From assembly GCA_900315705.1 (NCBI GenBank), contig ONAB01000008.1, forward strand, positions 34,223 to 98,222: a stretch of DNA of 64,000 nt. The letters run 5' to 3'. The DNA comes from an uncultured Bacteroidales bacterium. GTDB lineage: Bacteria > Bacteroidota > Bacteroidia > Bacteroidales > WCHB1-69. A program made the translations under genes and the position numbers. The notes under the pieces were generated by a model that ran no database searches, was not told the DNA's origin, and saw nothing but the letters and a program-made list of their open reading frames with translations. This document shows positions 18,650 to 49,253 of the stretch, in pieces (position 1 is the stretch's first letter; every line of letters begins with the position of its first letter).

Positions 18650-18680
18650 AAAAAAAACCGTCGCAAAAGACGGTTTTTCT
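18650..18680 (-). terminator. Terminator after the HMA repeat protein, possibly bidirectional
   Basis: Stem ACCGTC / GACGGT (18657-18674) with a six-base loop. T-runs follow on both strands (8 T on minus, 5 T then CTTTT on plus). Confidence 0.75.
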
Positions 18681-18701: not shown

Positions 18702-19433
18702 TTATTTGTGGCCTTGGCACTTGTGCTCGCCGTTAGCTTGACCCTGGCATTTGTGCTCGCCATTGGCTTGGCCCTGACATTTGTGCTCACCATTGGCGTG
18801 GCCCTGGCACTTGTGCTCGCCGTTAGCTTGGCCTTGGCACTTGTGCTCGCCGTTAGCTTGGCCTTGGCACTTGTGCTCGCCATTAGCCTGGCCTTGGCAC
18901 TTGTGCTCACCATTAGCGTGGCCCTGGCACTTGTGCTCGCCGTTAGCTTGGCCTTGGCACTTGTGCTCAGCATTGGCTTGGCCTTGGCACTTATGCGCAG
19001 CAGGCGTTTGGCTCTGGCCTTTCAGTTCACTGCTGGCCTGGCCCTGACACTTATGCTCTCCTTCAGCGTGACCTTGGCAAGTCTTGCTGGCGGAACTGCA
19101 GGATGATTTGCCTTTGCAGCAGGCGGGAAGCGCCTCACGGGCAGCCTTGTCGGCAGGAACATTGTCGGCGTTGTAACCCAGTTTGCTGATTTGTTTGCGC
19201 AACTGGTCGGGATCAGTCTTGCTGGCATCGTAGTTGATGGTCAGCTTGGCCGTTTTCATATCGTAGGAATAGGTCTTCACGCCCTTGAAGAACGGGACGT
19301 TTTCACTGAACTTGTCGGCACATTTCTGACAGACGCCGTTGGTTTGGATCACCACCGTCTGGATGTTGGACTTTTGAGCGAAGGCGCTCAAGCTGAATAC
19401 AGCCATAATGGCTAAAATAAGAGCTCTTTTCAT
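18702..19433 (-). CDS. Secreted heavy-metal-associated domain protein with His/Cys decapeptide repeats
   Basis: 243 residues. Signal peptide 1-19 (MKRALILAIMAVFSLSAFA). An HMA (ferredoxin-like metal chaperone) domain follows (about 22-92) with its metal motif as GVCQKC (Cys35, Cys38) in place of the usual MxCxxC, and the typical end KQISKLGYNAD. A short Cys-rich link (LPACCKGKSSCSS) leads to a tail from about residue 117 to 243 made of about twelve units of ten residues, consensus HKCQGQANGE, with Gln/His and Asn variation. Each unit offers one His and one Cys. This suggests binding of many soft metal ions (copper or zinc) in the periplasm or at the surface. It lies 100 bases downstream of the TonB-dependent receptor on the same strand and is probably co-transcribed. 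The metal and the repeat's role are inference. Confidence 0.85.
   Translation of the reverse strand: MKRALILAIMAVFSLSAFAQKSNIQTVVIQTNGVCQKCADKFSENVPFFKGVKTYSYDMKTAKLTINYDASKTDPDQLRKQISKLGYNADNVPADKAAREALPACCKGKSSCSSASKTCQGHAEGEHKCQGQASSELKGQSQTPAAHKCQGQANAEHKCQGQANGEHKCQGHANGEHKCQGQANGEHKCQGQANGEHKCQGQANGEHKCQGHANGEHKCQGQANGEHKCQGQANGEHKCQGHK
18705..19085 (-). repeat. 30-bp coding minisatellite (decapeptide repeat)
   Basis: About 12-13 tandem units of 30 bp in phase with the reading frame of the HMA protein. The distal units (towards 18705) are nearly identical; the promoter-proximal ones (around 18990-19085) are diverged, including one unit (LKGQSQTPAA) that has lost both His and Cys. Unit number probably varies between strains by slippage or recombination. 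Confidence 0.92.
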
Positions 19434-19533
19434 TTTGATAATTGTTTTATTTATTGATTAATCTATTTCTTCTTTGATTGAAAAAACAAGTCGCTGACTG
19501 CAAAGAGAGACTTAGGTTTAAAATTGTGAAAAA

Positions 19534-21849
19534 TTATTTTAAGGTAAAACGAACGCCCAGATAGCCCATTATGCCCGAAATGGGGGCGTATATGACGGTG
19601 GCGTCGAAGTTTTCGCCGAAGGGGTCGTCGGAGGCAATGATGGGATTCTTCTGCTTGTAGTTGGTCAGGTTCTCGCCGCCGGCATAGATTTCCCATCTGC
19701 GGAACTTCTTCGTGATCTGGGCATTCAGCAGGCAGTAAGCCGGGGATTTCTCCGGAAGGTGCGCCTCGGGATTCAGGCTCATATCCGGCAGACGCTGCGG
19801 ACCGCACACCTGCAGGTTGACGTTAAATTTCCAACGGTCATAGCGGGTGCTGTAGTTCACGTTGACAATGCCCTTGTGCGGACTCATCAAGGCCTTCTCG
19901 CGCATCACGCCTCCTGTCATATAGCGCACGTCGTTGTAACGGTAGGCCAGCAGCAACTCAAAGCGCGTGAAGGGGCGCAGGGTCAGCTCGGCCTGCAAAG
20001 AATGCGAACGCGAGCGGTTGCCCGTGCCGTTGAACGAACCGTTCAAGTTATATACATATATATAATGTATGTCCTGGTCCAGATCGATGATGGTCTGGTT
20101 GACGAAGGTGGTGTAGAAATAGTCGAGGGAGAACGACGACTTGCCACCCGGCAAGTTGAACTGCTGCACCATACTGACTCCGAAATTGTATGCCTCCTCC
20201 GGCCGCTGCATCTCCGTCCCCTGATACAGGAACTGGCGGTTGGAGGTCAGCAGCGACATATTCTCGGCGGTCCAGTGGGCGGTACGGTAACCCTTGCCGG
20301 CAGAGGCTCGGAAAGACAAATTATCGGTGGCCTGCCACTTGAGGTGCACGCGGGGTGTCCAGTAAAGCTGATTATAGTAAAAATTGTAGTCCAATCGCAT
20401 ACCTGCCATCAGTACCAACTTGGGGTCGATGATATAGCAATACTCGGCGAAGACGCCGGGCACCAGTTCGTCGGTCCGACTGAGCATCGGTTGCTGGGGA
20501 TTCTGATACACCTGACGCCAGTCGAAGAAGTCGTACTGAAGGCTACCGCCAGCAGTGAGCTTGTGTTGGCTTTTCTTTCCGAACTTGTTGCTATACAAGA
20601 TATTCACGTATGCACTTTGCTGATTGGCCTCAAAGTTGCGAGCTCCGAACAGGGCCTTGGTCCAGTTGCCGGTATAGGCCACAATGGTACCGATGCTCTC
20701 GTTTGCGCCCTTCAGCAGAAACCCGTTCTTCGTGATGAAGTCGAATTTCTTGTTATCTATGTGCACGCCGTAATGTTCCAACGAGGGATTGAACCCGTCG
20801 GGCGAATAACCGGTCTGTCCCCCTACCCTATTGTCCCATACAAAATCCAGCATCGTGCGGCCTCTCCACACGCTATTGGACTTGTAATCCCAGCGGTTCA
20901 TCACGTTGATCTGCTGGCTGCGGGGCATATCCATAAAGCCGTCCTTGTTCATATCCATCTTGACAAACTGGTCGCCGGCAAAGAGCATCAGCATCGTCTG
21001 CACCTTGTCGTTCTTGTCCACCTTGAAACGGCTGGTGAGGTTCAGTTCGCCCTTGCCCATCGAGTTGCCATAGAGGTTGATGAAGAGACGTTCGTAATTG
21101 GTCTCGGGTTTCTTGTAGTCCACATTAATCTGGCCAGTGATGGCCTCATAGCCGTTAGAGACGGAGGCCACGCCTTTGGAGACGCTGATAGACTCCATCC
21201 ACGAGCCGGGCATAAAGCCGAGTCCGAACTGGTGGGAAAGCAGGCGGATAAAGGGCACGTTCTCGAGGAGAATCTGGCTGTAGATGCCGGCCAGACCAAG
21301 CATCGAAATCTGACGTGCGCCGGTGATGGCATCGGCATACTCCATATCCACGGCCACTGTGCTCTCAAAGCTCTCGGCGAGGTTGCAGCAGGCGGCACGG
21401 CGCAGTCCCTCCTGCGAAATCACCGTGGTGAGGATGGGCTGAGTGGAGATGTAAGAGCCGTCGCGGGCCACGATGCTCACCTCCGCCAGGGCGTGCGCGT
21501 GGGAGAGCAGCACCGTGATATCGTTCTGGGAACGATTCACGACCAGCGTGTCGGGCTGGTAAGTGGGGAATGTGACCACCAGCGTGTCGGTCTTGGCCCG
21601 TTGCAGGGAAAAGCTGCCGTCGGCACCGGAAAAGGTACCCGTGGAGGTATGGAGCCACTGCAGAGCAGCTGCCCGCACGGCCACGGTATCACCGTTCTCA
21701 TTCAACTCAAGCACACGGCCTTTGAGGTTTTGGGCTGTAAGGGACTCCCCTACCCCAAACATCAGCATACACAAAAACAACCGTGACAAAATACGGACCA
21801 CAAACGGGTGATGGGATTTTGTTTCAATCCTGTTTATAGAAATTCTCAT
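19534..21849 (-). CDS. TonB-dependent outer-membrane receptor, probable metal (copper-type) group
   Basis: 771 residues from the ATG at 21849; the longer frame to 21924 begins upstream of the promoter box. Signal peptide to about residue 40 (ending SLTAQ), then a carboxypeptidase-regulatory-like domain (about 42-120, LKGRVLELNENGDTV), then the plug with RRAACCNLAESFESTVAVD, GARQISMLGLAGIYSQILLE and NGYEAITGQINVDYKKPE, then a 22-strand barrel ending in GYLGVRFTLK. The CC in the plug and this wording are what I recall from receptors beside HMA proteins in Bacteroidota, and here too an HMA gene follows. Substrate (metal or metallophore) is inferred. Confidence 0.9.
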   Translation of the reverse strand: MRISINRIETKSHHPFVVRILSRLFLCMLMFGVGESLTAQNLKGRVLELNENGDTVAVRAAALQWLHTSTGTFSGADGSFSLQRAKTDTLVVTFPTYQPDTLVVNRSQNDITVLLSHAHALAEVSIVARDGSYISTQPILTTVISQEGLRRAACCNLAESFESTVAVDMEYADAITGARQISMLGLAGIYSQILLENVPFIRLLSHQFGLGFMPGSWMESISVSKGVASVSNGYEAITGQINVDYKKPETNYERLFINLYGNSMGKGELNLTSRFKVDKNDKVQTMLMLFAGDQFVKMDMNKDGFMDMPRSQQINVMNRWDYKSNSVWRGRTMLDFVWDNRVGGQTGYSPDGFNPSLEHYGVHIDNKKFDFITKNGFLLKGANESIGTIVAYTGNWTKALFGARNFEANQQSAYVNILYSNKFGKKSQHKLTAGGSLQYDFFDWRQVYQNPQQPMLSRTDELVPGVFAEYCYIIDPKLVLMAGMRLDYNFYYNQLYWTPRVHLKWQATDNLSFRASAGKGYRTAHWTAENMSLLTSNRQFLYQGTEMQRPEEAYNFGVSMVQQFNLPGGKSSFSLDYFYTTFVNQTIIDLDQDIHYIYVYNLNGSFNGTGNRSRSHSLQAELTLRPFTRFELLLAYRYNDVRYMTGGVMREKALMSPHKGIVNVNYSTRYDRWKFNVNLQVCGPQRLPDMSLNPEAHLPEKSPAYCLLNAQITKKFRRWEIYAGGENLTNYKQKNPIIASDDPFGENFDATVIYAPISGIMGYLGVRFTLK

Positions 21850-21876
21850 AAATAATTTTCCAAAAATTAACGGCGG

Positions 21877-21884
21877 CAAAAGTA
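21877..21884 (-). promoter_or_regulatory. -7 promoter box of the TonB receptor/HMA unit
   Basis: TACTTTTG followed by CCGCC on the minus strand, 28 bases before the chosen start codon. Confidence 0.6.
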
Positions 21885-21936: not shown

Positions 21937-21975
21937 AATAACCGCCCCTCCTTTTTGCAAGACGGGGCGGTTATT
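21937..21975. terminator. Strong GC hairpin between the acyl-CoA ligase and TonB receptor genes
   Basis: Perfect 12-bp arms AATAACCGCCCC (21937-21948) and GGGGCGGTTATT (21964-21975). It starts a few bases after the stop of the acyl-CoA ligase (minus strand). No T-run follows, so it may be an atypical terminator or a transcript-stabilising hairpin. Confidence 0.55.
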
Positions 21976-24784: not shown

Positions 24785-24791
24785 TTTGTCT

Positions 24792-24986
24792 CCTCCTCAC
24801 GGCTCTACAGGTTCCTCCTCAAGGCACCACGGTATCCTCCTCACGGCTCCACAAGCTCCTCCTCAAGGCACCACACTGCGGCTTCGCCTTGTGTGGGGTT
24901 ACTGGGATTTTGTCCCTTCGGGACTGCTCAAGGTTTATCACCTCCTCACGGCACCACACTGCGGCTTCGCCTTGTGTGGGGTTACT
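24792..24986. repeat. Tandem and direct repeats with TTC-loop hairpins in the GT2/DUF4199 gap
   Basis: The 313-base gap holds no gene. A 22-bp tandem unit (CCTCCTCA[C/A]GGC[T/A]C...) starts at 24792, 24814, 24836 and 24858, with a fifth start at 24941. A 37-bp direct repeat lies at 24867-24903 and 24950-24986. Short hairpins with a TTC loop follow one another: GGC-TTC-GCC (twice), GTCCC-TTC-GGGAC, GCGC-TTC-GCGC and GCCCC-TTC-GGGGC. The gap ends in a triple CTTAAGTC/CTAAGTC run (about 25031-25055). Confidence 0.75.
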
Positions 24987-25053
24987 TGCGCTTCGCGCGT
25001 CTTGCCCCTTCGGGGCTGCTTAAGGAAAGTCTTAAGTCCTAAGTCCTAAGTCT

Positions 25054-49151: not shown

Positions 49152-49246
49152 TCCACGAAATATCCACGAATTACACGAATTTCACGAATAAATCCACGAA
49201 TTACACGAATTTCACGAATTATACGAATTAGCGAATATCACGAATA
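49152..49246 (+). repeat. CCACGAATT short-period repeat between mnmE and pdxJ
   Basis: About ten units of 8-11 bases with the core ACGAAT. A 28-bp stretch (atccacgaattacacgaatt and 8 more bases) occurs at 49162-49189 and again at 49192-49219. It begins at the base after the mnmE stop and ends before the pdxJ promoter. Confidence 0.8.
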
Positions 49247-49253
49247 AATTTTG

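Follow-up and report, generated by a model that had tools for sequence, protein, structure and literature searches.

What is the task of a TonB-dependent receptor whose gene is followed by that of an exported HMA-domain protein ending in a long run of histidine- and cysteine-rich decapeptides? The question is raised by a locus at positions 18,702 to 21,884 of a 64,000-nucleotide stretch of DNA, termed "the window" throughout, from an uncultured Bacteroidales bacterium of the WCHB1-69 lineage (contig ONAB01000008.1, positions 34,223 to 98,222). The locus is a reduced variant of a module comprising a receptor, an HMA protein and a Cys/His-rich protein of the HYC_CC_PP type, the gene for the latter not being found here. 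We regard it as roughly an even call that the locus represents a clade-specific form of a Bacteroidota-wide outer-membrane module for soft metals, with Cu(I) as the most likely substrate and Zn(II) otherwise, and with the repeat tail as a periplasmic buffer. The genes and their parts are the following, in window coordinates:

19534-21849, minus strand: TonB-dependent receptor gene (771 amino acids; N-terminal extension, plug and beta-barrel, by Pfam and NCBIfam)
21385-21390, minus strand: codons of Cys154-Cys155 at the plug start (AACCNLAESF), invariant in 126/126 receptors
20980-20982, minus strand: codon of Phe290, a position occupied by His in 97/103 receptors outside the window's genus
18702-19433, minus strand: gene for the exported HMA protein with repeat tail (243 amino acids)
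19374-19433, minus strand: signal peptide MKRALILAIMAVFSLSAFAQ, residues 1-20, by inspection
19173-19331, minus strand: HMA domain, residues 35-87 (PF00403, 44.7 bits, cut-off 24.8)
19320-19331, minus strand: putative metal site C35-Q-K-C38, inside the HMA domain
19116-19130, minus strand: LPACC motif, residues 102-106, end of the HMA core (LPAC in 20/20 alignment rows)
18708-19067, minus strand: His/Cys repeat tail of 12 decapeptide registers, residues 123-242, 11 of them with HKC

Receptor and HMA gene lie in line on the minus strand, the receptor gene first, with a gap of 103 bp between them, as a first-pass annotation of the window had described. That annotation had also described receptors of this kind as neighbours of HMA genes in Bacteroidota, and the comparison with other genomes confirmed it. 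Among 101 genomes searched, including the window's own (41 from the window's genus, 20 from its family and 40 from its order), the receptor was matched at E<=1e-60 in 77 and the HMA core at E<=1e-5 likewise in 77; within the genus, each was found in 35 of 41. Counted from coordinates, the two genes are adjacent in 18 of the 35 receptor-bearing genomes of the genus, and in the remaining ones the HMA gene resides on another contig, lies kilobases away or was not found. The proposal that the pair is conserved in related genomes thus survives, with adjacency limited to about half of the receptor-bearing genomes of the genus.

A wider sample of the phylum comprised 296 genomes of at least 90% completeness. 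Receptor matches at E<=1e-50 occurred in 92 of these, those of about 1e-62 and weaker probably being other receptors, and a match of about 1e-87 or better exists in 77 genomes, counting that of the window. Analysis of 69 loci with roughly 1.5 to 3 kb of flanking DNA and an HMA threshold of 30 bits (G246, G274, G345, G125, G121, G322 and G306 were left out) revealed an HMA domain in the same stretch in 39; in a further nine, HMA forms the N-terminal side of a fusion protein with the receptor. At the level of the order, two of 19 loci (L063 and L064) carry such a fusion, and in 11 loci altogether receptor and HMA domain share one open frame (L063, L064, L152, L174, L177, L180, L182, L184, L186, L189 and L194). 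Since the two families go together in this manner, a shared role is well founded. Relatives of the locus, considering the best 80 of 199 matches, stem nearly all from uncultured metagenome-assembled genomes of Bacteroidales, Bacteroidetes or Bacteroidota, one being assigned to Flavobacteriales; for many of these 80 the gut of yak, sheep, goat, buffalo, deer, reindeer or horse is given as the source, and for others a host is not stated.

In most loci outside the window's clade a small gene upstream of the receptor encodes a Cys/His-rich protein of about 110 to 200 amino acids, which by eye combines an N-terminal membrane stretch, an H-x-C motif and CC pairs, often with Pro-Pro near the end. Eleven of these proteins were compared with the NCBIfam model NF047658 (HYC_CC_PP, cut-off 28 bits): L197 (141.7 bits) and L216 (47.6) pass, L074 (27.6), L068 (19.3) and L076 (18.3) score below the cut-off, and six have no match. 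As two of 11 pass, the assignment of the Bacteroidales proteins to this type is based on where their genes lie, on the motifs they have in common and on a local profile. According to the latter, an HYC-like gene precedes the receptor in 60 of 69 phylum loci, in 15 of 17 scorable order loci (two more have too little upstream DNA), in 14 of 16 loci from other genera of the family and in none of 23 loci from the window's genus. A genome-wide search with a 13-row profile yielded matches in 14/20 genomes of the family and 20/40 of the order (34/60 other relatives), and, at E<=0.001, in none of the 41 genomes of the genus, including that of the window. The first-pass annotation had treated receptor and HMA protein as a working pair; their shared role stands, and the notion that the pair is the whole unit does not, since an HYC_CC_PP-type gene lies upstream elsewhere.

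The absence of this gene coincides with further changes in the window's lineage. In a FastTree phylogeny of the receptors (125 rows), the genus and locus L098, which belongs to another genus of the family and likewise lacks the HYC gene, form one clade with a local support of 100, so that the loss in these loci counts as one event. Over the whole tree the presence of HYC changes nine times, compared to a shuffled mean of 30, with the state of two rows set by hand. Most HMA genes in the window's genus encode long His/Cys tails. Among HMA proteins that are not fused, the tail holds 0 to 5 cysteines in 57 of 58 loci with HYC (the exception being L177, with 11), and in 23 loci without HYC the median is 8, a difference with p 1.6e-5 that is not corrected for kinship. 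Finally, the receptor residue aligned with Phe290 of the window is His in 97 of 103 receptors outside the genus, and in 87 of 91 loci with HYC, is Asn in L098 and is never His in the 23 receptors within the genus.

The receptor itself passes the Pfam cut-offs for TonB_dep_Rec_b-barrel (79.5 bits, cut-off 27) and Plug (27.9 bits, cut-off 23.9), and its N-terminal extension resembles CarboxypepD_reg-like below the cut-off (27.0 of 32.2 bits). A SusC/RagA-type receptor was considered and rejected, as the match to TIGR04056 reaches 27.4 of 368.25 bits. Cys154 and Cys155 are kept in all 126 receptors whose alignment spans 600 residues or more, the window's included, and are also invariant in an alignment of 37. 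The two residues align with the plug start of 9gbc, the nearest solved relative by sequence (E 8.5e-16). The plug-start end of TonB receptors faces the periplasm, and on the basis of this alignment and topology the cysteine pair is tentatively placed on the periplasmic side.

The HMA protein possesses the signal peptide and the CxxC site attributed to it by the first-pass annotation, the former by inspection and the latter as C35-x-x-C38. Its LPAC motif is kept throughout the 20-row core alignment, which was cut at residue 105, and among solved chains the HMA domains of copper ATPases score best against its domain, followed by those of zinc ATPases. The protein had been called secreted, a description that we would revise: neither a lipobox (by eye) nor a type IX C-terminal domain (Pfam and NCBIfam scans) was found, and fusions in relatives have the HMA domain on the receptor's N-terminal side, for which reasons a periplasmic location is likelier. 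A match to a type IX sortase N-terminal model stays below its cut-off (20.1 of 40 bits).

From residue 106 onward, Cys accounts for 10.1% of the protein and His for 10.9%; the corresponding values for 45 mechanically called open reading frames (ORFs) of the window with at least 150 amino acids are 1.36% and 2.55%. The roughly twelve decapeptide units with His and Cys noted earlier correspond to 12 registers, 11 of which carry HKC, the register at residues 133-142 being degenerate; on the DNA, Tandem Repeats Finder reports a repeat at 18709-18996 with a period of 30 and a score of 415. The window repeats are under purifying selection. The ratio of non-synonymous to synonymous differences (pN/pS) among the 11 units is 0.11, and at unit positions 5 to 9 (His, Lys, Cys, Gln, Gly) codon changes are synonymous only, while position 10 changes from Gln to His in three units. 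These units were picked by HKC, yet all fall into one ten-residue register, in which HKC is absent from one of 12. Pooled over 31 tails pN/pS amounts to 0.26, where the constancy of the motif is not independent evidence, because the units were anchored on an HxC or CxxH motif. These are two types of repeat: of 34 tails with at least 5 Cys (the window's and those of named loci, a few outside its genus), 19 are of the HxC type with a period of mostly 10 and 15 of the CxxH type with a period of mostly 9. Both types are mixed in the tail of locus L244. Within the genus the tail ranges from 6 to 164 amino acids. The tail is probably a metal buffer, its 11 HKC units suggesting that several metal ions could be bound.

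An explanation that would accommodate these features runs as follows. Driven by TonB, the receptor would carry a metal, free or chelated, across the outer membrane, and the Cys-Cys pair at its plug start would hand the metal to the CxxC site of the periplasmic HMA protein. We infer this handover from the alignment of the cysteine pair with the plug start and from the natural fusions, in which the HMA domain lies on that side of the receptor. Once in the periplasm, the metal would be retained and buffered by the HMA protein with its multivalent His/Cys tail. In other lineages of the phylum a distinct and probably membrane-anchored HYC_CC_PP-type protein may share the metal load; in the window's genus, where the HYC gene is gone, the HMA tail would have grown into tandem repeats and taken over that load. 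The metal is taken as soft on grounds of chemistry. Copper is favoured because of the type of HMA domain, because a Cu-type P1B ATPase gene directly follows the HMA gene in L212 (TIGR01511 583 bits, TIGR01512 388.5) and because genes for CusA/CzcA pumps, whose family assignment does not discriminate between Cu and Zn, stand beside the module in L215 and L217. In L213 and L214 an HMA-MauE membrane protein is encoded between HYC and receptor, a candidate inner-membrane partner. A bolder version of this explanation is doubtful: the HYC_CC_PP protein, the receptor with its CC plug and the HMA protein of the periplasm would form an undescribed, phylum-wide import relay for soft metal, passing it from the plug cysteines directly to the chaperone, and one gut lineage would have lost HYC together with the receptor ligand His290 and rebuilt the metal-holding capacity of the lost partner as a repeat tail on the chaperone.

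A number of observations weigh against the soft-metal module and, in particular, against copper and against a replacement of HYC by the tail. No HMA domain was detected at 30 bits or more in 21 of the 69 phylum loci. As the loss of HYC in the clade is a single event, the proposed replacement has a sample size of one. Short tails stand beside the receptor in the HYC-less loci L098, L166, L168 and L183, HYC and a Cys-rich tail are both present in L177, and five loci of the genus have a tail of 6 amino acids beside the receptor; four of these five genomes, as well as G011, harbour a second, tailed HMA gene elsewhere (L121-L125), and in the fifth, G039, none was found. Outside the genus, nine of 11 HYC-less loci keep His290 (L098 and L183 do not), so that the two losses are not coupled in general and coincide in this clade only. 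In the window's genome, which is 97.6% complete, searches for P1B Cu-ATPase, COX2, multicopper oxidase and CsoR came back empty, as did the one for CusA/CzcA at its cut-off; a need for copper is hence not evident there. A Cu-type ATPase over the cut-off is found in none of the 41 genomes of the genus, though in 28 of 101 overall, and no association between HYC and Cu-ATPase emerges from the 60 genomes outside the genus (Fisher p 0.79). Pfam counts for 80 of 96 neighbouring ORFs yielded no dominant metal partner (beta-CASP 8, AraC 4, VTT 3, MauE 2, YHS 2). Lastly, neither of the OprC motifs, CxxxM and HxM, is present in the window receptor.

Detoxification as the primary task is a rather unlikely alternative, in which the tailed HMA protein would serve as a periplasmic sponge that shields a gut anaerobe from an excess of soft metal, and the receptor would import something else, such as a metal-chelator complex or iron. 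That no P1B ATPase was found in the window's genome agrees with it, as do the CusA/CzcA or P1B genes adjoining the module in L212, L215 and L217 and a report that copper is more toxic without oxygen (PMC9040851). Iron-type genes lie upstream in one locus each, FeoAB-like genes (by eye) in L069 and a ferritin gene in L098, and make import of iron by the receptor possible. Tails in the genus are also richer in Cys where no P1B ATPase was found (median 11, n=16) than where one was (median 6, n=19; Mann-Whitney p 0.001), a comparison that leaves out the six of 41 genomes without an HMA match and groups G016, with only a fragment (6.9e-4), with "none". This pattern fits a buffering role but follows clade lines, and as an argument for detoxification it is confounded by clade. 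Moreover, a Cu/Zn exporter of another kind is present, since the one further HMA gene that turned up in the window's genome encodes an SO_0444 Cu/Zn efflux permease (408 bits, cut-off 300), and a TonB-driven importer would be an odd partner for a sponge.

A further alternative, in which zinc or some other divalent ion is the substrate and the locus serves zinc acquisition, is unlikely. Sites composed of His plus Cys suit Zn, no COX2 or multicopper oxidase was found in the window's genome, and the Cys/His-rich C-terminal extensions of plant HMA4 bind Zn with nanomolar affinity via di-Cys motifs (PMC6255694). Against zinc, the His stretch of HMA4 is reported to be dispensable (PMC6255694), the CxxC HMA domain of the window protein scores best against copper ATPase domains, and a Cu-type ATPase gene comes after the HMA gene in one locus (L212). 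That the tailed HMA protein is an extracellular metallophore recognised by the receptor is improbable: an exported protein beside a receptor, with a hydrophilic, low-complexity and multivalent tail, would be in keeping with such a function, but no lipobox was seen by eye, no type IX C-terminal domain emerged from the family scans, and 11 loci encode fusions with the HMA domain on the receptor's N-terminal side, which is periplasmic by receptor topology. A tail that is a neutral repeat expansion with no metal function is very improbable and was rejected on the selection result in the window (pN/pS 0.11). Tandem DNA repeats of 30 bp do expand and contract easily, as the range of tail lengths in the genus may reflect, and the tail of L240 is frame-shifted in its last part; the pooled pN/pS of 0.26 for motif-picked units points the other way, however, and both repeat types keep His and Cys.

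How does the favoured soft-metal module relate to described systems? HMA domains are a known kind of component, as are TonB receptors and Cys/His metal tails, and the name HYC_CC_PP exists in NCBIfam; among the matches listed in a literature search, there was no paper on the HYC_CC_PP/receptor/HMA module or its function, and the family name itself gave no match. The window shares with the HYC_CC_PP/receptor/HMA neighbourhood the receptor family, the HMA partner and the gene order, and differs in that no HYC-like gene was found and that the HMA protein bears a long His/Cys tail. MerP is an exported HMA protein, as is the window's, and like the metallochaperones MerP and CopZ the latter has a single HMA domain; it scores 18.9 of 92.55 bits against MerP (TIGR02052) and 29.2 of 95 and 26.6 of 91 against CopZ, and differs from both in its repeat tail and receptor partner. 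PcoE and SilE are periplasmic metal sponges, to which the proposed buffer role is alike; their family is not among the Pfam and NCBIfam matches of the window protein in general family scans, no direct comparison having been made. OprC of Pseudomonas and TccA of Caulobacter are likewise outer-membrane TonB-type receptors proposed for soft metal (PMC9470648 and PMC12617631). The copper site of OprC consists of CxxxM and HxM, according to PMC9470648 and PMC11213822; the window receptor, in which neither motif occurs, was rejected as an OprC homologue, and it differs from both OprC and TccA by its invariant plug CC and a dedicated HMA partner. Plant HMA4 offers a likeness in features: it too is an HMA-family protein with a Cys/His-rich C-terminal tail, which binds several Zn ions, but it is a P-type ATPase with di-Cys motifs in place of tandem HKC decapeptides (PMC6255694).

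Transfer of metal from OprC to a periplasmic chaperone is called putative and unexplored in the review PMC9470648. A widespread receptor family with an invariant Cys-Cys pair, a dedicated HMA partner and natural fusions would render the passage of metal from receptor to chaperone testable. The window's genus amounts to a natural experiment, in which one partner is absent, a receptor residue is changed and a repeat tail has grown.

Two signals flank the gene pair, and both had been proposed from the sequence at the outset:

21877-21884, minus strand: promoter box TACTTTTG, fitting TAnnTTTG
18653-18678, 3' of the HMA gene: hairpin terminator, z -4.5

The box is present and matches what we take to be the Bacteroidota promoter consensus, TAnnTTTG; in the 3.7-kb region, sigma-70 sites occur at chance level (3 vs 2.6 in shuffles). 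The strong terminator likewise holds: folded as minus-strand RNA, the hairpin reaches -15.4 kcal/mol, which none of 200 shuffles equalled. It is this fold energy that carries the claim and not the pattern count, as the terminator pattern scan of the same region found 1 site vs 4.5 in shuffles. No conserved regulatory box was evident by eye upstream of the receptor in 22 stretches, the start codons of which were set by script and are in some cases doubtful. A GC-rich hairpin, AACCGCCCC...GGGGCGGTT at 21940-21973, is visible by eye between the upstream gene and the receptor and was not listed by the terminator scan. The upstream gene, acyl-CoA-synthetase-like as named by eye, was rejected as a functional partner, since it recurs in four of 40 loci and other genes take its place elsewhere.

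Several further observations concern relatives of the HMA gene. Where an HMA gene is unlinked, the genes around it are of housekeeping or unrelated kinds (seven scanned). The SO_0444 permease (L307:292-1692, on G000:C45) contains a C-terminal HMA domain and a His/Cys-rich loop. In G392 (L177/L217), a free HMA protein bears an unrelated Cys repeat tail (11 Cys in 70 amino acids), and the gene order is tailed HMA, TlpA-like gene, HMA::receptor fusion, second receptor and CusA/CzcA pump. The last part of the frame-shifted tail of L240 (G009) seems to be another frame of the DNA repeat and is devoid of Cys and His.

Elsewhere in the window, an intergenic repeat at 24791-25030 has a core, CACTGCGGCTTCGCCTTGTG, that occurs twice in the window and also in L010, L088 and L231, on one contig of the congener G017 near its HMA gene. 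An array of CACGAATT-like units follows an ORF at 49154-49249, and a Bacteroidales small signal recognition particle RNA is encoded on the minus strand at 1213-1321 (92.7 bits).

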